Shown here in pieces: positions 1 to 62,402 of a stretch of 64,000 nt of DNA. A program made the position numbers and the translations under genes. Within the stretch, counting starts at the first letter, position 1. Every line of letters starts with the position of its first letter. The notes below the pieces were generated by a model. The model worked only from the letters and a program-made list of their open reading frames with translations. It ran no database searches and was not told where the DNA came from. This DNA is from Candidatus Saccharimonadota bacterium (GTDB taxonomy: Bacteria; Patescibacteriota; Saccharimonadia; Saccharimonadales; Saccharimonadaceae): NCBI GenBank assembly GCA_017406985.1, contig JAFQXL010000004.1:309708-373707 (forward strand), in the 5' to 3' direction.

Positions 1-586
1 ACGGATTATCTTTCATAGCTTCAGTATAGAGTTGTCCGATATAAGCGATAGCGGCATCGTCTTCAACTTTCTTATAAGCATTTCCGGAAGCAAAATTCTC
101 ACATTCTACATCGTTAGCGTTTTGTCTAAAGACGCCACCAGAAAGATGCCCGTTTCCGGAATCGGAATATTTATTACAAGCAACTTGAGTAATAGTAAGG
201 CCGAATGTACTCATGAACTTTTCGAGTATACCCTGCCTACAATAGATTTCGCCGTCTTGAATTTTACCCTGTGTCTGGTTCTCGAGCCAAGCTCCAACTG
301 CGATATTTGTCGGGATAATACTACTATCGAACCAGTTTCCATTTTCAACATCGTCAGCATAAAATGTACGGTTCATATCGCCGAGACCTTGACGGTTCGG
401 AATGCAACGAGCGAATTTTTGAGCGACTAACTGCGCACGACCGGCGGCTTGAATTAAACTTTCGGCGTCTCCGACATCGACTTTAGCCTGATATGCAGCA
501 AAAGCCGAAGAAGCTCCGACTGAAGTAATTAACACTGTTATAGTAACAGCCCAAAGTCCAATACGTTTTAATAAATTATTCTTCAT
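1..586 (-). CDS. VirB6-module secreted/membrane protein, paralogue of the 2282-5971 gene (C-terminus beyond window)
   Basis: The reading frame starts at ATG 586 and runs off the left edge; about 195 residues are visible. It opens with a signal peptide (MKNNLLKRIGLW, then a hydrophobic stretch ending ASSAFA) followed by a Cys-containing extracellular region. The motif IIPTNIAV followed by a Cys about 20 residues later resembles IIPTKVGN plus Cys in the N-terminal ectodomain of the 2282-5971 protein, so I take it as a diverged paralogue and expect a VirB6/TrbL-like membrane region further left. Its start overlaps the stop of the upstream cassette by 11 nt, so the two would be translationally coupled. 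In the present DNA orientation no promoter drives this pair, so it is probably silent. Confidence 0.7.
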   Translation of the reverse strand, partial: MKNNLLKRIGLWAVTITVLITSVGASSAFAAYQAKVDVGDAESLIQAAGRAQLVAQKFARCIPNRQGLGDMNRTFYADDVENGNWFDSSIIPTNIAVGAWLENQTQGKIQDGEIYCRQGILEKFMSTFGLTITQVACNKYSDSGNGHLSGGVFRQNANDVECENFASGNAYKKVEDDAAIAYIGQLYTEAMKDNP

Positions 587-1247
587 CGTCTATTAACCCG
601 TCTCTTATTTTTATAATTAGTTCTGTCATAGAGTTATTACTAATCGCGTCAGAAATCGTCTTATGGAAGATTCCTTTAATATAATCATAGTTGTTATAAA
701 TTATTGCCGTTTCTGGATTATAGCTGTTTAGACCATTAATATATTTTGTATAAGCCTCAGCCGCGGTTTTTTCGCCACTATCTGAACTTTTTAGATATTC
801 AGAAATAAGCGCGACGTTACTGGTTTTTATAGCGTTATAATAATTTTCATAAATTTTATATGCGCTATTATAGGAATCAATATTTTTTTCAAGACGTTCT
901 TTAAGAGTATTAAAATCTTCTAATACTTTTTCACGAACGGAAGTTTTGTCTTTTATTGTTTCGCTAAAACTATTCGTCGAGTCAAGATATTTCTTCAGAG
1001 CTTTCTGCGAAGCGTCTTCGAAAATCGCACCGTTATTCTTACTCTTATCTATGTCGATAAAGACGTCTTCTAGTTTAATTACGTCGTCTGAATATTGAGC
1101 CATAGCCTCTCTTACTGCGCTATCATGAATTCCGGTGGTGCTACTTGAGGACGAGCCTTTCCCCTTGTTCTGCTGCAGGGCAAAATAAACGCCAACCCCA
1201 GTTAAAATAGCGAAGACGGTAATAATGCCGAGGATGATAAGGAACCT
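576..1247 (-). pseudogene. Silent 5'-less cassette of the single-span membrane protein (paralogue of 1324-2280)
   Basis: The frame is open from codon AGG at 1247 down to the stop at 576, with an in-frame TAA (1248-1250) directly before it. Residues read RFLIILGIITVFAILTGVGV then YFALQQNKGKG, almost the same membrane span as in the 1324-2280 protein (RFLIIISIITVFAVLTGIGV), then about 170 residues of different, helical, Asn/Lys/Ser-rich ectodomain. An internal ATG at 1103 would give 175 aa but would lose the membrane span, so I do not believe it is the native start. The homology to the plus-strand gene begins at the AAAGGTTCCTTAT inverted repeat. I read this as a silent cassette that becomes a full gene if segment 1250-1519 inverts, and not as random decay, because 224 codons stay open. 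Confidence 0.75.
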
Positions 1248-1249
1248 TT
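1237..1249 (-). repeat. Left 13-bp inverted repeat of the putative invertible segment
   Basis: On the minus strand this reads AAAGGTTCCTTAT, an exact inverted copy of 1520-1532. The core AAGG-TT-CCTT is an imperfect palindrome around a non-palindromic TT, the kind of layout known for serine-recombinase crossover sites. The same bases encode KRFLI, so conserved coding alone could also explain the match. Confidence 0.7.
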
Positions 1250-1519
1250 ATTTTATCTAAATAGGGATTATTTACTAAAAATCCTTGCGAAAATGTTTAT
1301 GCTTATGTTATACTTAAACCACGATGGGTCCAGAAAATAAAAATCTTTTTAATAACCGCCTTGGAATGCGCCCGAGCCGCAATCTTTCGGCTATGGACGA
1401 ATTAAACCGAATTTCTGCTCAAACTCAGGCCCAAAATCAGCCACAAACTCCGCAAAGCGTAAGCACTTCTTCTGACATTGTCTTAAGCGGCGGTTCTGCT
1501 CCGAAAAATCAGGGTAAAA
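1250..1519. other. Putative invertible promoter/5'-coding segment (locus 1)
   Basis: This 270-bp segment lies between the two 13-bp inverted repeats. It carries the promoter (1285-1314), the ATG at 1324 and the first 65 or so codons of the plus-strand gene. Inverting it at the repeats would join the GGT AAA AAA codons in frame to AGG TTC CTT of the minus-strand cassette and place a stop codon before the plus-strand gene. Inversion itself is inference; the geometry is read directly from the sequence. Confidence 0.55.
1285..1314 (+). promoter_or_regulatory. Promoter of the 1324-5971 operon
   Basis: TTGCGA (1285-1290), an 18-bp spacer and TATACT (1309-1314) preceded by TG at -14/-15 (extended -10). 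The spacer contains GCTTATG, a heptamer that recurs in other accessory promoters of this window. The start codon follows 9 nt after the -10, so the transcript has almost no leader. Confidence 0.7.
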
Positions 1520-2280
1520 AAAGGTTCCTTATAATAATCAGTATTATTACGGTTTTTGCCGTCTTAACCGGAATTGGTGTTTATTTCGCTTTGCAACAAA
1601 ATAAAAATGGCAGAATTTTTACGTCGGAATATACGAAAACTTATAATGATTATGTCGAATATTTATTAAACGGCGAAAATGCAGAAAAAACTGCTACCCT
1701 TACGACCGTTAAAGAAAATAATGAGTTAGTCTATCCTTTTAACTTTAATACGGTAAAAAAGATTACTTATAAAGAAAAAACTAATATAAATTCATATTTC
1801 GAGAATCTAAACACAAAACTAAATACTCTAAAGGAAAAAGCCGGCTCAAATAAGAAAGATAGCGTCGAGAAAAACATTACGGCGGTTGAAATCCTAGAAA
1901 AAACTATAAATTATCCAAAATATTTTAGTGAACTTAAAGCCGAATATAAAAAGAGCGAAAGCGCTGCTAAAACCTATATCCAGAACAATTTTAGTTATAG
2001 CGGCGATAACGATAGTCTAAAAAATATTTCGGCCTTACAGAGTGTATTCTATGAATCCCTAATTAGCGAATATATTGTCTATTCCGGTATAGACTGTATT
2101 AATAGTGACGGATATGACTATAGTTGTGCGATTCAGAAATACGGATTGAATGGCTCGGCGATAATTTCAGAATTTGAACAGCAGGTTTCGACTGCCTATA
2201 AAAAACTAACTGACGATTCAGCTTTGCGTATTTTAAATAAAGCGGTTATCGATTTAACGACAGAAATGAGTGAAAACTAA
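1324..2280 (+). CDS. Single-span membrane protein with variable ectodomain
   Basis: This 318-aa protein has a cytoplasmic N-terminal segment of about 65 residues, rich in Gln, Pro, Ser and Asn. One membrane span follows (FLIIISIITVFAVLTGIGV, about residues 68-90), then an outside domain of about 225 residues that is mostly predicted helix, Lys/Asn/Ser-rich, with one Cys pair near the end (GIDCIN, YSCAIQ). I recognise no family. It forms an operon with the VirB6-like gene, whose ATG lies one base after this stop. It is the expressed partner of the silent minus-strand cassette 576-1247: the membrane span is conserved between the two, the ectodomains are not. A role as an accessory or adaptor of the adjoining secretion-like protein is a guess from context. 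Confidence 0.8.
   Translation: MGPENKNLFNNRLGMRPSRNLSAMDELNRISAQTQAQNQPQTPQSVSTSSDIVLSGGSAPKNQGKKRFLIIISIITVFAVLTGIGVYFALQQNKNGRIFTSEYTKTYNDYVEYLLNGENAEKTATLTTVKENNELVYPFNFNTVKKITYKEKTNINSYFENLNTKLNTLKEKAGSNKKDSVEKNITAVEILEKTINYPKYFSELKAEYKKSESAAKTYIQNNFSYSGDNDSLKNISALQSVFYESLISEYIVYSGIDCINSDGYDYSCAIQKYGLNGSAIISEFEQQVSTAYKKLTDDSALRILNKAVIDLTTEMSEN
1520..1532 (+). repeat. Right 13-bp inverted repeat of the putative invertible segment
   Basis: AAAGGTTCCTTAT, an exact inverted copy of 1237-1249, located at the start of the membrane-span coding region. Beyond it the two copies still align on opposite strands for about 80 bp, but with many synonymous differences, so the exact match is confined to this 13-mer. 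Confidence 0.7.
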
Positions 2281-2281
2281 A

Positions 2282-5200
2282 ATGAAAAAACTTAAACTCT
2301 TGAAAAAAATTATAGTATTAACCCCTGCTCTTTTAATTTTCTCCGTTTTTCTATCGAGCTTTAAAACGGAAAATACTTATGCGTTAGCCGGAAGTGCCGA
2401 ACAATATCATAAACTCGCGGTTATGCGCGGCGTTCAACAATGTTATAGTAGTCACGCAAAAAGCCAAATTAAACAAAGCGACTTTACTGGCTGGACATCT
2501 ATTTTCGACGGAAATATTAACAGCGACGGAGAAATTATTATCCCGACAAAAGTCGGAAATACGATTAATAATAATGATTTTAGCTGTCAAGATGTCTTTG
2601 CCGGATATAACGACGTCGGGGGGAGCGGAAGCGGTTTTAAAAACTATGCAACAATCCCTACGACTTTAACGGATTTAGGCTATGTCTTTAGCCATAATGA
2701 AGGCGCCGCAAATTCTAAAAGCGGAACTCCAGACGCCGATACTGACCAAGTTACTCTAAAGTTTTCTGATATTACTGACGCCTCCGGTAATGATTCTCGT
2801 CCAATTGCTGTTAGCGGGGAAATCGTTATTAACGGTGAACAAAAATATTATAACGGGTGGGTAAGGAAGTATCACTATTGGAATATTACTGGCGTGTCTG
2901 GCTCTCTTGAAGCTAAATATAACGGCGAAACGCTTTATACTTTACAATTTAGTGGCTCTCAATATCCGTTTCAAGCGGGGACAGTTAAACATTCAGATGG
3001 GACAGTGGAGCCAATATCAACTTTTTCTTATGACGTAGATGTTTTATATACCCAGCTCTATAATGGAAAAACTAGTAGTTCTAAACTTACGCTTGCTGAT
3101 GCGATAAGTAACTTTACCTCCGACGTCGAAGCTAATATTAAGGACGCCGGTAAGTACGTCTTTACCTCGCCAAATGTAAGCGCTAACGTTACGTTCACGG
3201 CTCCGAAAGAAGATGATAGAAATAACGCAAATTCGGTATATAAAATAAACACTAATGGTGCGACCGCCTCGTCAATTATGTTAGCCGCCGCGAACGCAGG
3301 CGAAGATTTGCCACATACTGACGGTAGTCTTAGCGGAGCTGGCGGGACAGTAAAAACAAGAAGTTTTTACTGGAGCGATGCCTATAAATATGGCCTTTAT
3401 TACCAATATCTAAAAGATATTATGAGCGAATATTCTGGCATTAGTATCGGCGCATGTTCTAGCTCGAAACCTGATGGTGCTGCGCATTATTTTAAAGGAA
3501 CAAAAGACAACTGGTGTCCAATCAATATCCCTGCCGACTCACAAGGCGCTTTAAGTAAAGAGCTTGCTATCGTCGGTTCTAGAGATCTAGAGATGGGAAA
3601 GTTTGAGGACATTCTCGAGTGGTTTAAGAACGAAGACTCTTATAAATATCTTCAAGAAGGAGATTATGCTAATGTCGACAAGAAGAACGATGATGACGAC
3701 GATAATGGTGGTGGCGGTGGTGGAACTGATCCGAGCGAGACTGGAGACACAGAAACAACTCCAGAAGAAGCGTGTTATCGCCGTGCTGGTTCGATGGGCT
3801 GGATTATCTGTCCGATTATCTTCGGAATGAGAGATGTCGCAGACGGTATTTATGGCGCAATCGAAGGATTTATTAAAGTCGACGATTCAATTGTCGGCCA
3901 AATCGGACAGGGGATTAACTCTAATAACGGCTCAATTTATCAAGCTTGGAATACATTTAGGGGGATTGCAAATATCGTTTTCGTAATTCTCTTCCTAGTT
4001 GTAATTTTCTCTCAACTTACTGGTTTTGGAATTGATAATTACGGAATTAAAAAGATGCTTCCGAAACTTATTATTACTGCTATTTTAATTAACCTTTCCT
4101 TTATTATTTGTGCAGTTGCGGTGGATATTTCAAATATCGTCGGGCGTTCTATACATGATTTCTTTACCGGCTTGAATGTTACTGCTCAGATTAACGGCGA
4201 ATCAGTTTCAAGTGATCTTGCTGTGGCAGCAAAACAAGTTACTGCTTATATCGTAGATATCGCTCTCGTTGCTGGTGCTACGGTTGGGCTCGGCGCTCTT
4301 GTTGTGCTTAATTTCTGGGAGTTAATTATTCCTATTCTTCTATTCCTTTTAACATTTGTTATTGCGATTATCTTCGCCTTTATTATACTTGGTCTTCGTC
4401 AAGCTGCGGTAGTTGTTTTAATCGTTATAGCTCCGCTCGCGCTAGCGCTCTATGCTCTACCTAATACCGAAAAAGTATTCAAAAAATGGGTTGATGCCTT
4501 TAAAGGTGTGTTAGTTGTCTATCCAATCGTCGGCGCAGTAACGGGCGGAGGCGGTTTTGCTGGACGAGTTTTACTCAGTGCAGATAACGGTTTTCTAATG
4601 ACTTTAACCGCTGGTCTTCTCTTCGTCGTTCCATATTTCTTAATTCCAAGCTTAATGAGGAAGTCGCTCTCGGCGATTGGCGATATTGGTAATCGTCTTC
4701 ATAATGTCGGTAGAAACGCTGGCTCAAGGCTTAGTAACGGGATTAATAATCTTGACCGAGTTAAAAACGCGCGTGCCGATTTTAGCGAACGTAACGCGCA
4801 GAACCGCGCAGAGCGCTACTTCAGATCTAGACGAGCAGACAGAGACGCAGAAGCAGTTAAGAACGGAACGGCTACTATTCGCCAATCTCGTCGATATAGA
4901 CGTAATGCTGGCCTCGCTAATACTCAAAGGCAAGCGAACATCGAGGCACGTTCAGCACAGAGTCAATATAACCGTCTTCAATCTGAAACTGGTTATCAAG
5001 CTGCGCTTTCTTCCGCAAACATGTCCGAAGCCGATACGGCAGTTAAGAACTTTGAGACAATGATTACCGCTGGAGATTATGCGTTTGATTATACAGACGA
5101 TAAAGGAATATCTCATTCTACTCTTAACGCGCAAGATAACTCTGCTATCGCAAAAGCGCTCGAACATGAACTTACGACAAGCGACGGAAGCGACGATTCG

Positions 5201-5971
5201 AAAGCAAGAATCCGCGCGCTCTCGAACGCTCTCGCTAGTAAAGGTAAAGATGGTCGTCAACGTATGTTTAATGCGGTTGATAGCGCTCAAAAGAACGGTG
5301 CGTCTAAAGATGCTATCCAAACATTCTCGAGTAACATCCAGAACAATCATGCTGGTACTATGAAAGACAAGTTCCGTCCGCTTTACGAGTTTACCAAAAA
5401 GGCTCAAGTCGATGGTTCGGGAAATATCTCGGATTACAAATATTCGGCTGTCGACAAATTCTCGACGGGCGATATGGCGAATATGGACGTTACGCATCTT
5501 CAAGACTTCGTTAATTATGATAAGAAAAGTAATACTTATGCGGGCGGCTTTAACGCTAACTTTACAAGCGAAGCGGATCGGGCTACGCTTACTAACCTTG
5601 CTAGGCAGACTCTTGCTGACGAACATTTATCTCAAAATCTTTCCGGAGAACAAAGATCTGCGCTTGAAGCAATTGTTAAAGCAGGGCAAGTTAATAACCC
5701 GGCTCCAGCTCCGGCTGGCGCAGCGCAAGAAGGCCAAGAGTTCAAGATTCATAATCAAGACGAGGTTATCAGGAGAGTTACGGCGGGCGAATTAACTCCG
5801 GCACAAGGAGACCGATGGATTGAGATTATGAAAAATCCAACCGCGGCGGAACGAGAGTTTATTAATCGTACAAATCAGAAAATTGCGGATAAAACCTATT
5901 CTCAAGAAAAGGCAAATGAGTTAATAAAGGCGATGGTTGATAAATCTCTCAAGGATAATCCAAATAGATAA
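2282..5971 (+). CDS. VirB6/TrbL-like multi-membrane protein with large ectodomain
   Basis: I place the start at ATG 2282, one base after the upstream stop; GTG 2270 is an in-frame alternative. The 1229-aa protein has a signal peptide (MKKLKLLKKIIVL to TYALAG), an extracellular domain of about 440 residues with scattered Cys, and an acidic/glycine linker (DDDDDNGGGGGG). Next comes a block of about six or seven membrane spans (roughly residues 555-790), introduced by a Cys-rich WIICPIIFGMRD stretch. The last 430 residues are charged, Ala/Asn/Arg-rich and probably cytoplasmic. Hydrophobic core plus long soluble tail is typical of VirB6/TrbL channel components of type IV secretion-like systems, widespread in CPR genomes. 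The family call rests on architecture. No VirB4 or VirD4 partner lies in the window. Confidence 0.7.
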   Translation: MKKLKLLKKIIVLTPALLIFSVFLSSFKTENTYALAGSAEQYHKLAVMRGVQQCYSSHAKSQIKQSDFTGWTSIFDGNINSDGEIIIPTKVGNTINNNDFSCQDVFAGYNDVGGSGSGFKNYATIPTTLTDLGYVFSHNEGAANSKSGTPDADTDQVTLKFSDITDASGNDSRPIAVSGEIVINGEQKYYNGWVRKYHYWNITGVSGSLEAKYNGETLYTLQFSGSQYPFQAGTVKHSDGTVEPISTFSYDVDVLYTQLYNGKTSSSKLTLADAISNFTSDVEANIKDAGKYVFTSPNVSANVTFTAPKEDDRNNANSVYKINTNGATASSIMLAAANAGEDLPHTDGSLSGAGGTVKTRSFYWSDAYKYGLYYQYLKDIMSEYSGISIGACSSSKPDGAAHYFKGTKDNWCPINIPADSQGALSKELAIVGSRDLEMGKFEDILEWFKNEDSYKYLQEGDYANVDKKNDDDDDNGGGGGGTDPSETGDTETTPEEACYRRAGSMGWIICPIIFGMRDVADGIYGAIEGFIKVDDSIVGQIGQGINSNNGSIYQAWNTFRGIANIVFVILFLVVIFSQLTGFGIDNYGIKKMLPKLIITAILINLSFIICAVAVDISNIVGRSIHDFFTGLNVTAQINGESVSSDLAVAAKQVTAYIVDIALVAGATVGLGALVVLNFWELIIPILLFLLTFVIAIIFAFIILGLRQAAVVVLIVIAPLALALYALPNTEKVFKKWVDAFKGVLVVYPIVGAVTGGGGFAGRVLLSADNGFLMTLTAGLLFVVPYFLIPSLMRKSLSAIGDIGNRLHNVGRNAGSRLSNGINNLDRVKNARADFSERNAQNRAERYFRSRRADRDAEAVKNGTATIRQSRRYRRNAGLANTQRQANIEARSAQSQYNRLQSETGYQAALSSANMSEADTAVKNFETMITAGDYAFDYTDDKGISHSTLNAQDNSAIAKALEHELTTSDGSDDSKARIRALSNALASKGKDGRQRMFNAVDSAQKNGASKDAIQTFSSNIQNNHAGTMKDKFRPLYEFTKKAQVDGSGNISDYKYSAVDKFSTGDMANMDVTHLQDFVNYDKKSNTYAGGFNANFTSEADRATLTNLARQTLADEHLSQNLSGEQRSALEAIVKAGQVNNPAPAPAGAAQEGQEFKIHNQDEVIRRVTAGELTPAQGDRWIEIMKNPTAAEREFINRTNQKIADKTYSQEKANELIKAMVDKSLKDNPNR

Positions 5972-59157: not shown

Positions 59158-60969
59158 TTAGACACTGGCGCCGAGATATAGGATTTTGGCGTAGCCGTTT
59201 CCGGTTTTGCTGTAGTCTGATGTGGCGGTAGCGGAGACGTTGGTATTTGAGTTTGTTCTTGTTGCGGCAACGCTAGAGGTAGTACAGGAATAGCAGGTCA
59301 TATGTTTCGTGATTGTGCTAGTTGAAATTAGGTTTGAAGAACTGATGTAGCCGGAGCCACCAGACGACGACGTATAAACTGAACCTGCCCCTCCATACCA
59401 GCCTCCTCCACCTCCAGGGATAGCACTGCCATAACAGTCAGTTTTAGACGAGTCTGTAAAACAATCTGCAGTACCAGTTGCATAGCCAAAACCAGACGCC
59501 GTGAACGGCGGAATTTGGAGAAGATTTGTGCGGTTATAGCCTTGGCCACCGGCTAGTTGTGTTGCCACGGTAGGTTGAGTTGATCTGCCTGCACTAGCGC
59601 CTGATACCGAATTAACTCCACCGCCATGTCCGCCATACCCCTGCCAGCTACCACCGTAACGATGCACACTTCCGCCACCTCCGCCGCCTGCAACAATTAA
59701 GATTTCATTCGAGACGTAATAGGAGTTATTAGTTAAAGTGCCTTTATAGCTTTCGAGGTTTTTGAGTAGTCCAGAGACGGACGCGATATGAGTAGCTCCC
59801 CCGCCAGTAGCAGTCCTCCAAACATAAGAATCCGACAGCGACGCGCTTTCTTTACCACAGCCAGCTTGGCCTCCTCCATTATATCCTCCAGATTTGATTA
59901 CCCACGTCGTAGAGGTAGAGTCACAGGGAACGCCTTTCCCGCCAACGTTTATATATTTACTATCCTGTTTTTTTAGATTTATTACGCCGACCGAGTAAGC
60001 GCCATAGCCACCACTAAAAGCTGCGGAATTATACGTAGCCGTTCCGCCTTCCGCACCCCAAACCTCAAGTTTATAATATCCACCACACGGCGCAGTAAAG
60101 GTCTGTTCTCCTCCAGTATAGTCATAAGCATAAGGAGTGTTCTTAACCCAACAGGCACTAAGCGTAACCGTAAAGTTATTGTCTGGATTTGGATTAGCAG
60201 TTGTTTCTGTTCCGGTAAAATCTAAGGACCCATTGGACCATCCGCCAAAGATGTATCCAGATTTTGTAGTAGTATAGTTATTTAGATTTACTGTATCTCC
60301 ATAGTTAATGGATTGATCAGATATAGTACTTCCTCCATCAGTATTAAACTTTAATGTATAAGCAAGACATTCAGGAGCAACAGCAACCGTATATACTACA
60401 TCATTAGTATATGTACCAGAAGGAATAGTATTATCTAGCTTAACTCCATAGATAACATCAATATCTGTATTAGTTTCAGCTACTGTACTATAATAAAGAA
60501 CAGCTGGAGATGTATTTACCGGTACCTGGGAGAAAACCTTTCCACTTGTTTTAAAGCCCCAAGTATTATCAGTTAGTCCAGTAGTTACATCTCCAGCTAC
60601 AGCATCAATAGTTTTAACACCAGAATCAGACCCGGTGCGCGTCAAGGAGTTATTAGAAGCAGAGTTCGTATTTATATATACATAAGCTCCTTTAGTACAA
60701 GTAGAAGTAAACTTAATATTATTTGTATTAGTATATTCTGTTTGAGTATTAGTAGGAGTGATGGGAATAGTTACAGTATTATCATTAGAGATTGAAGCAT
60801 AATAGACAGAGCTACCTGCAGAGGCGGAAGTGGTGGTGGCTTCGCTTTTATTTGGTTCGGCAATTAAAAAGCTAATCAAGAGACCGATTAGCAAAAAGAA
60901 CGTAAAAGTAACGAGAATATTTAAAAATGTATTAAAGGTGCTGTTTGTTTTAGTGGAAAAGCTTGACAT
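59158..60969 (-). CDS. Glycine-rich anchored surface protein (expressed copy of inversion locus 2)
   Basis: The 603-aa protein has an N-terminal signal anchor (ILVTFTFFLLIGLLISFLIA), a Thr/Asn-rich beta domain, and a Listeria-Bacteroides (InlB-type) repeat (YTLKFNTDGGSTISDQSIN to YIFGGWSNGS). A large glycine-rich domain of the ALK/LTK-like bacterial type follows (YDYTGGEQTFTAPCGGYYKL, GGGATHIASVSG, ILIVAGGGGGG), ending SKTGNGYAKILYLGASV. It is a probable adhesin. Its last 350 residues are duplicated and diverged in the inverted cassette 61332-62402; the first 250 are unique. It has a strong promoter and a 245-nt folded leader. Confidence 0.85.
   Translation of the reverse strand: MSSFSTKTNSTFNTFLNILVTFTFFLLIGLLISFLIAEPNKSEATTTSASAGSSVYYASISNDNTVTIPITPTNTQTEYTNTNNIKFTSTCTKGAYVYINTNSASNNSLTRTGSDSGVKTIDAVAGDVTTGLTDNTWGFKTSGKVFSQVPVNTSPAVLYYSTVAETNTDIDVIYGVKLDNTIPSGTYTNDVVYTVAVAPECLAYTLKFNTDGGSTISDQSINYGDTVNLNNYTTTKSGYIFGGWSNGSLDFTGTETTANPNPDNNFTVTLSACWVKNTPYAYDYTGGEQTFTAPCGGYYKLEVWGAEGGTATYNSAAFSGGYGAYSVGVINLKKQDSKYINVGGKGVPCDSTSTTWVIKSGGYNGGGQAGCGKESASLSDSYVWRTATGGGATHIASVSGLLKNLESYKGTLTNNSYYVSNEILIVAGGGGGGSVHRYGGSWQGYGGHGGGVNSVSGASAGRSTQPTVATQLAGGQGYNRTNLLQIPPFTASGFGYATGTADCFTDSSKTDCYGSAIPGGGGGWYGGAGSVYTSSSGGSGYISSSNLISTSTITKHMTCYSCTTSSVAATRTNSNTNVSATATSDYSKTGNGYAKILYLGASV
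60155..60216 (-). repeat. 62-bp exact inverted repeat, left copy (locus 2)
   Basis: Exact inverted match to 61353-61414; homology extends from 60230 inward (GGTCCTTAGATTT) with one mismatch, then about 100 bp more at lower identity. It encodes TGTETTANPNPDNNFTVTLS. Confidence 0.9.
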
Positions 60970-61215
60970 GTTATACTCCTATTTTTTATATAGGTAGCAC
61001 CTCAGCCTCCACTCATCTAAAGAAGCAATAAGGCGCCACTAGGGTGCATACATCTCTACAGACTAACAAATCTCGGCATAGCCTAAATCCATTAGGTAAA
61101 GTTGTCCTAATGACGCCTTTGTTGTTCCTAATGGATAGATTTATTAACCTCTAGTTGTAGATATGCGCCTATTTTTTATAAAAATAGGATTTGTTAATCT
61201 GATAAAAATGTATGC
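60970..61215 (-). ncRNA. Large multi-stem 5' leader of the surface gene
   Basis: From the expected start (about 61215) the RNA closes on itself. ATGTATGCA (61208-61216) pairs with TGCATACAT (61045-61053). GATTTGTTAATCT (61188-61200) pairs with AGACTAACAAATC (61060-61072) over 13 bp with one G-U. Inside are CCTATTTTTTATAAAAATAGG (61168-61188) and CCTAATGGAT/ATCCATTAGG (61127-61136, 61087-61096). Downstream are GGCGCC, a GGTGC/GCACC pair and a 4-codon upstream frame before the ribosome site GGAG. Not a class I recognise. Confidence 0.6.
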
Positions 61216-61221
61216 AACTTT

Positions 61222-61251
61222 ATTATAACCCAAAACTATTCGATATTTCAA
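61222..61251 (-). promoter_or_regulatory. Promoter of the 60969-59158 surface gene
   Basis: Minus: TTGAAA (61251-61246), 18 bp, TATAAT (61227-61222). It lies inside the putative invertible segment. Confidence 0.75.
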
Positions 61252-61275
61252 GTCTTGAATTTTGTCATTTTTATT

Positions 61276-61307
61276 GTTTAGTTTTTTGCTTGCGAGCCGA
61301 CGCCCGC
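61276..61307 (-). repeat. Dispersed GC-rich/A-rich repeat, copy 2
   Basis: On the minus strand GCGGGCGTCGGCTCGCAAGC, then AAAAAACTAAAC; 27 of 32 positions equal 58386-58417. It lies upstream of the surface-gene promoter. Confidence 0.6.
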
Positions 61308-61331
61308 CGGAAAGGCCGTTTATCCGGATAG

Positions 61332-62402
61332 ATTAAACGGTCCTTAGATTTCACCGGAACAGAAACAACTGCTAATCCAAATCCAGACAATAACTTTACG
61401 GTTACGCTTAGTGCTTGTTGGGTGAAATCTAGTGCTTATGCTTATGACTATACTGGAGGAGAACAAACCTTTACTGCTCCTTGTGGTGGATATTATAAGT
61501 TGGAGGTGTGGGGGGCGAGCGGCGCAGACGGATGGAATAGTTGGACGACTAAAATTTATCAGAAAACATTAGGAAAGGGCGCCTATGTTGCCGGTTCGAT
61601 AAAAGTTAATAAAAATAATCCGTTATATATTTATGTAGGCGGAGCGGCAACAAAACTCACGGGTTATTCAGACGCGCCAGGGGGATATAACGGTGGTGGT
61701 GGCGGTTGCAAGGCAGTTGACGGCGATGATGCGGCCGGAGCAGGAGGAGGTTCGACGGATATACGTGTAATCTCTGGGGAATGGAACGATGATAATTCCT
61801 TAAGAAGTCGGATACTTGTTGCGGGCGGTGGTGGTGGCTCTCACCTTACTCTTGATACCGCCACTCTTTATGAACAGGGTAGACATGCCGGAGGAATTTC
61901 GGTAGTTGGTCAGATTTCCGGCAAAACTGATAGCGATATTTGGTCGCCTACGGTAAATCAGACAACCGGCGGGGCTTTTGGGTATGGAGCTACCGGCATT
62001 TGCCCCAGTGGTGCCGGACATAGCGGAGGAGGAGGTGGATGGTATGGCGGAGAAGCAAAATCCACAGGCAATGAAAATGACGGCGCCGGTGGCTCTTCCT
62101 ACATCTCCGGTCATACGGGCGCAGTAGGGGTAACGTCTACGTCTGATAGTTCTCCTAAGACTGGATGTACAACCGGAACTACAAATAACACTTGTAGTCT
62201 AACGCCATATATAAATCCTGCTACTGGAACTTATTATACATTTACTAATACAGTAATGATAGATGGGGCAGGATATGCTTGGACGAACACAAAAGGTTCC
62301 CTACAGCAGATGCCGAATCCGAGTGGTGGATATTACGCGAGCGGAGTCGGACATAGCGGAAACGGTTATGCGAAGATAACATATCTTGGAACTACAATCT
62401 AG
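61332..62402 (+). pseudogene. Silent 5'-less cassette of the glycine-rich surface protein
   Basis: The frame is open for about 355 codons to TAG 62402 but has no ATG, no ribosome site and a TAG at 61329-61331. From 61339 it reads SLDFTGTETTANPNPDNNFT and on, identical to the middle of the 59158-60969 protein, then the glycine-rich domain with a different interior (KIYQKTLGKGAYVAGSIKV, GGGSTDIRVISG, RILVAGGGGGSHLTLD) and the shared ending GNGYAKITYLGTTI. A GTG at 61422 is in frame but would produce no signal sequence. I read it as a donor cassette expressed only after inversion. Confidence 0.75.
61353..61414 (+). repeat. 62-bp exact inverted repeat, right copy (locus 2)
   Basis: Exact inverted match to 60155-60216, at the start of the silent cassette. 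Confidence 0.9.

Follow-up and report, generated by a model that had tools for sequence, protein, structure and literature searches.

A probable DNA-inversion switch between two VirB6-like modules in a Saccharibacteria genome with a single Mpi-family invertase gene

Results

Two head-to-head modules at locus 1

The window, i.e., the whole 64,000-nucleotide stretch of DNA that was analyzed, corresponds to positions 309708-373707 of contig C3 in a genome of 731 kb and four contigs (G000); positions below are those of the window unless a contig is named. Near its left end, two gene modules, A and B, stand head to head on either side of a short segment (locus 1), with the following features; ON and OFF refer to the orientation in the assembly.

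1-586, minus strand: 5' end of the gene for VirB6-like protein A (1164 aa), OFF; it overlaps gene A and extends to C3:306799
576-1247, minus strand: headless gene A of module A, 223 codons, OFF; it would gain a start and an N-terminus on inversion
1237-1249, plus strand: left arm of the putative recombination site, ATAAGGAACCTTT, an exact inverted repeat
1250-1519, plus strand: putative invertible segment, with the candidate promoter, the start codon and a 65-codon cytosolic N-terminus common to both modules
1285-1314, plus strand: candidate sigma-70 promoter from the consensus scan, TTGCGA-18-TATACT with extended -10
1324-2280, plus strand: gene B of module B, an ORF of 318 aa, ON
1520-1532, minus strand: right arm of the putative recombination site, complement of the left arm
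2282-5971, plus strand: ORF directly after gene B, for VirB6-like polytopic protein B (~1229 aa), ON

The product of gene B consists of a cytosolic N-terminus, one membrane span and a helical extracytoplasmic domain, and in its structure model (pLDDT 70) the C-terminal domain is all-helical. VirB8 was considered as an identity for genes A and B, but the view that gene B is the missing VirB8 was not supported, since the model is nearly all-helical, rather than NTF2-like alpha/beta, and gave no significant fold match. The minus-strand frame of gene A (1247-576; RFLIILGIITVFAILTGVGVYFALQQNK...) is homologous to gene B from the membrane span onward. Its first codon is AGG (Arg), and this is immediately preceded by a TAA (1250-1248 on the minus strand) that straddles the inner edge of the repeat, two of its bases belonging to the repeat arm and one to the inner segment. 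These properties of the frame, namely homology from the membrane span, a stop directly before it and no start, had been described in the original prediction and were confirmed in the sequence. When the segment was inverted in silico, the 65-residue head and gene A formed an in-frame protein of 289 aa while gene B lost its head, so that the restoration of the minus-side frame at the expense of the plus gene, also predicted, was reproduced. Since gene A overlaps the gene for VirB6-A, and gene B directly precedes that for VirB6-B, the unit that is switched would be a two-gene module; VirB6-A and VirB6-B are 61% identical across the membrane domain. The initial proposal of two alternative versions of an apparatus is too broad, as the switch would concern this module and not the type IV secretion system (T4SS) as a whole.

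As anticipated, the segment between the arms contains a candidate promoter and the ATG of gene B at 1324, only 9 nt past the promoter, in a near-leaderless arrangement. It is to be noted that the consensus scan found three promoter matches where 1.5 were expected, and because this is near chance level the promoter of locus 1 is a putative one. The scan also bears on the idea that the locus formerly switched but is now locked, module A being kept through a cryptic promoter that serves an internal ORF of 175 aa (ATG at 1103) and VirB6-A. Such an internal ATG exists, and a weak promoter-like match is found on the minus strand at 1261-1234; however, this match is again at the chance level (1.5 expected), and a start at 1103, which is downstream of the membrane span of gene A, would omit a span that is found family-wide. 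A locked locus is therefore highly improbable.

The 13-nt inverted repeat is exact and lies at the joint as originally claimed, and the only two exact copies of ATAAGGAACCTTT in the genome are the arms of locus 1. However, the run is enclosed in an inverted repeat of 89 nt and 75% identity, contributed by the two paralogous genes, and since an exact run of 13 nt in such arms has a probability of ~0.40, it is unremarkable by itself. As the repeat at locus 1 was thus weak evidence, independent evidence was sought. What gives the locus-1 case its weight is that gene A lacks a head, that the repeat sits right at the joint, and that the same design recurs at two other loci.

VirB6-like identity and genomic context of the modules

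TrbL/VirB6 (PF04610) was among the best Pfam matches for both switched VirB6-like proteins and for a third paralogue in the genome (C3:487155-490268), although all three scored below the gathering cut-off (10.6, 13.2 and 18.5 bits against 25.9; E-value of 0.49 for VirB6-B). Over the membrane domain this third protein shares 40% identity with VirB6-B; its gene adjoins VirB4-like, PrgI and T4SS pilin-family genes, whereas the two switched copies do not, being located ~175 kb from this cluster. Because all three paralogues share the sub-threshold PF04610 match and the third has these T4SS neighbors, 'VirB6-like' appears to be a fair name for the switched proteins; the 'VirB6-type' of the original prediction was reasonable in the light of the third paralogue, even though the Pfam cut-off is not reached. 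The model of the VirB6 membrane domain was of insufficient quality for use (pLDDT 50), and searching PDB sequences by profile yielded no match.

Relatives of VirB6-like protein B were found in 170 of the 174 genomes of the genus, and genes A and B are members of a fast-evolving family that, in genus relatives, is represented directly upstream of VirB6-like genes. In close relatives the gene order is a DUF11-type surface protein, a gene of the A/B family and a VirB6-like gene, followed in a second species (G096) by an RNase J-type gene. Since module B in the present genome is inverted between the DUF11-type surface gene and the remainder of this order, module A probably holds the ancestral position. 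Two other arrangements were seen in the genus. In G139 (C17:2918-8307), two VirB6-like genes lie in tandem on one strand, a possible precursor of paired modules, and in G082 (C7:124000-142000), which has the VirB6-like gene nearest to that of module B (67%), no homologue of gene A or B was recognisable upstream.

A single Mpi-family invertase

The original prediction had directed attention to a recombinase in the rest of the genome, and one serine recombinase, the only one in the genome, was indeed found ~30 kb from locus 1 (C3:278198-278851). It scored 303.7 bits against the NCBIfam model 'master DNA invertase Mpi' (NF009949; cut-off of 272), matching positions 1-197 of 203, and has the catalytic motif of serine recombinases, IYGYIRVSTDKQ, near its N-terminus; its sequence also matches structures of the Tn3/gamma-delta resolvases and DNA invertases. 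Genes of the Mpi type are rare in these bacteria, being present in 4 of 174 genomes of the genus and 5 of 394 genomes of the family. Counting against the switch, no long-arm inverton was detected in two of the other carriers, G033 (~94% scanned) and G142 (~85% scanned).

A real switch could also be operated by another agent, namely a tyrosine recombinase of the Xer-like kind or homologous recombination of the two arms. The genome has one tyrosine recombinase gene (phage-integrase type), which is Xer-like, and the arms of loci 2 and 3, described below, contain exact blocks of 62 nt that could favor homologous recombination. Against this, the short and diverged arms of locus 1 would serve homologous recombination poorly; G033, in which the scan gave no inverton, has the Xer-like gene too; and the geometry of the sites, a short palindrome around a dinucleotide, is that expected for a serine invertase. 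Moreover, action at a distance has precedent in the Mpi of Bacteroides fragilis, a single gene that inverts 13 regions at many distant sites (PMC4747536). Another agent thus appears unlikely, and the Mpi-family enzyme is the preferred candidate.

Two further loci of the same design

A scan for inverted repeats, run over successive stretches of the genome, revealed, besides two retroelements, two more loci with the design of locus 1. Locus 2 occupies positions 59161-62399 of the window; its minus strand encodes an entire surface protein, and its plus strand a glycine-rich domain that lacks a head:

59161-60969, minus strand: surface-protein gene, ON, with an N-terminus, a Listeria-Bacteroides repeat and the glycine-rich C-terminal domain alpha
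60045-60244, plus strand: left arm, 200 nt, 87% identical to the right arm, with 62 nt exact at 60155-60216
61325-61524, minus strand: right arm, from the inverted-repeat scan
61332-62399, plus strand: headless glycine-rich C-terminal domain beta, OFF; headless in G096 as well

Both alternative C-terminal domains of locus 2 are glycine-rich and ALK/LTK_GRD-like. Locus 3 (C3:284943-287849) is outside the window, 6 kb from the invertase gene, and consists of a complete gene whose end is of the Fib_succ_major type and of an alternative, glycine-rich end that has no head; its arms share 62 nt exactly. Inversion in silico at each of the three loci produced an uninterrupted in-frame fusion and beheaded the gene that was formerly complete. 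By chance, all three loci would retain the frame with a probability of 1/27, a figure that does not yet take the missing heads into account. The assembly presents one orientation at each of the three loci.

Several other repeats were considered as invertons and rejected. Those at C3:62846/65402 and C1:38738/41146, and at C3:27786 of G033, are diversity-generating retroelements, with a reverse transcriptase and template and variable repeats, and the inverted repeat at C2:80229 of G033 is likely to be another. A 35-nt repeat at C3:182697 resembles a pair of self-complementary hairpins of the terminator type, and the short, strong repeats of G033 were classified as symmetric interspersed or terminator-like elements. 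Contigs C2 and C3 of G033 (e.g., C2:147937-148048) carry intergenic interspersed repeats with perfect stems of 20-31 nt and a common GC-rich core, which are MITE- or terminator-like. The diversity-generating retroelements of the genome under study (C3:61332-65602 and C1:38738-42998) act on surface proteins of related type, and G033 has at least one more.

Proposed recombination sites

At all three loci the identity of the arms ends at or just inside a GG-NN core, which reads AAGG-AA-CC at locus 1, AAGG-AC-C at locus 2 and TTGG-AA at locus 3, and the crossover may be placed there. At locus 1, the proposed crossover dinucleotide would be the AA at 1243-1244, within AAGG-AA-CCTT, and its counterpart at 1525-1526 in the right arm. 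A 14-nt sequence, TTTATTTTATCTAA, recurs at the same offset in the non-coding inner back ends of loci 1 and 3, where the flanking genes are unrelated. It occurs exactly twice in the genome against 0.09 expected, and in a null test only 4 of 400,000 random AT-rich pairs matched equally well. The proposed consensus is nonetheless loose: locus 2 matches it loosely, and the core of locus 2 in G096 differs.

Selection on the headless half of locus 2

The species with the closest invertase (G096; 88% identical) also has the inverton of locus 2 as a head-to-head pair, and the same C-terminus is ON in both species. Over the 309 codons of the headless domain, the differences between the two species number 98 in codon position 1, 99 in position 2 and 195 in position 3, giving a pN of 0.31 and a pS of 0.77; the corresponding values for the expressed domain are 0.32 and 0.72. 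The headless half of locus 2 is thus under purifying selection like the expressed half. Such preservation of a frame with neither start nor promoter would hardly be expected if it were never expressed.

These results also help to judge a reading without any flipping, in which module A is a decayed duplicate, truncated at the 5' end on head-to-head insertion of module B, and the repeat is nothing but gene homology. An exact run of 13 nt is expected by chance in such arms, as stated above, and loci with a single module are the norm in the genus, both of which agree with decay. On the other hand, gene A and VirB6-A are fully open over 223 and 1164 codons, the end of the lost part coincides exactly with the start of B's shared head, and inversion yields a perfect fusion; furthermore, the same design is found at two other loci, one of which has its headless half under purifying selection in two species. 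Decay is consequently very unlikely, and inversion between the two modules, as originally predicted, is the best explanation, considering the invertase, the two additional invertons, the conservation of locus 2 under selection, and the 14 nt common to the sites of loci 1 and 3.

In favor of a switch, repeat pairs of this kind were not found at 29 related single-module VirB6 loci, nor at 23 related surface-gene loci in the invertase-free genomes G163, G167 and G082. Neither another strain nor the opposite orientation turned up in a DNA search of the genus; in GTDB contigs, the search for a second strain retrieved only a more distant genome from roe-deer rumen (RGIG5046), and viral contigs scanned for the inverted junction did not yield it. 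Two contigs of G096 break off within related surface-protein genes or at their head (C16:1-838 and C13:1), as expected if assembly had been interrupted at switching or repeated sequence.

Discussion

We regard it as highly probable that locus 1 is a DNA-inversion (phase-variation) switch on which an invertase of the Mpi family acts in trans. In the proposed mechanism, this serine invertase would recombine the two sites centered on AAGG-AA-CCTT (1237-1249 and 1520-1532), and thereby flip a segment of ~280 bp that carries the promoter, the start codon and the shared 65-residue cytosolic N-terminus. The assembled orientation would produce protein B together with VirB6-like protein B, which is coupled to it, while the other orientation would place the same head in frame with protein A and drive VirB6-like protein A; the junction itself would create the TAA that closes the silent module. 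The same invertase very likely serves the two further invertons, which would swap C-terminal domains of surface proteins. Inversion in cells, the action of the Mpi-type enzyme, and the varying of the host-contact or secretion interface as its purpose are what we infer from these findings.

Saccharibacteria live on other bacteria. In an epibiotic member of the CPR, a single master invertase could reshuffle a T4SS channel module (VirB6 and its partner) and adhesins at three loci while retroelements diversify related surface proteins, so as to vary the hosts that can be attached to or exploited; we offer this only tentatively, and consider it possible rather than probable. Switching between two VirB6-like modules, along with switched adhesins, would provide a direct means of varying the interaction with hosts, and would place programmed DNA inversion in a group with very small genomes. 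In a cultured species of Saccharibacteria, the T4SS including virB6 was reported to be essential for growth on the host, as cited in passages of PMC12102498 and PMC12857230. The passages of these two papers on VirB6 and Patescibacteria do not mention inversion. Literature searches of partial coverage, combining Saccharibacteria with DNA invertase and VirB6 with DNA inversion, found no paper, and among those on Saccharibacteria and phase variation none was on DNA inversion by its title, one being about a repeat region of a Gracilibacterium. DNA-inversion switches with shared heads are known as such; what would be new is an Mpi-type system in a CPR bacterium that swaps a secretion-channel module and adhesin domains.

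Among known systems, the T4SS of Patescibacteria, with VirB4, PrgI, VirB6 and VirB2-like pilins, resembles the neighborhood of the third paralogue as far as it is described in the relevant passages of PMC12102498. The capsular polysaccharide loci of Bacteroides fragilis are similar in that a single serine invertase of the Mpi family serves several distant loci in trans; there, however, promoters flip and turn operons ON or OFF, whereas here, in a CPR host, a promoter together with a coding head would choose between two alternative downstream genes. In the sap locus of Campylobacter fetus and the vsa locus of Mycoplasma pulmonis, an invertible unique promoter or shared 5' region is joined to alternative coding sequences. 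The present loci share this meeting of an invertible 5' region with alternative downstream sequences, but differ in recombinase, target proteins and phylum; moreover, each locus has just two partners, which are fixed, in place of a larger set of cassettes. Lastly, in the G-loop of phage Mu, which is inverted by Gin and encodes the tail-fibre pairs S and U, the invertible segment contains the variable parts, and the constant part lies beyond it. Locus 1 resembles it in its small serine invertase and in a constant N-terminus with two alternative C-termini, each accompanied by its own second gene, but the topology is reversed, the constant part being inside the segment and the variable parts outside.
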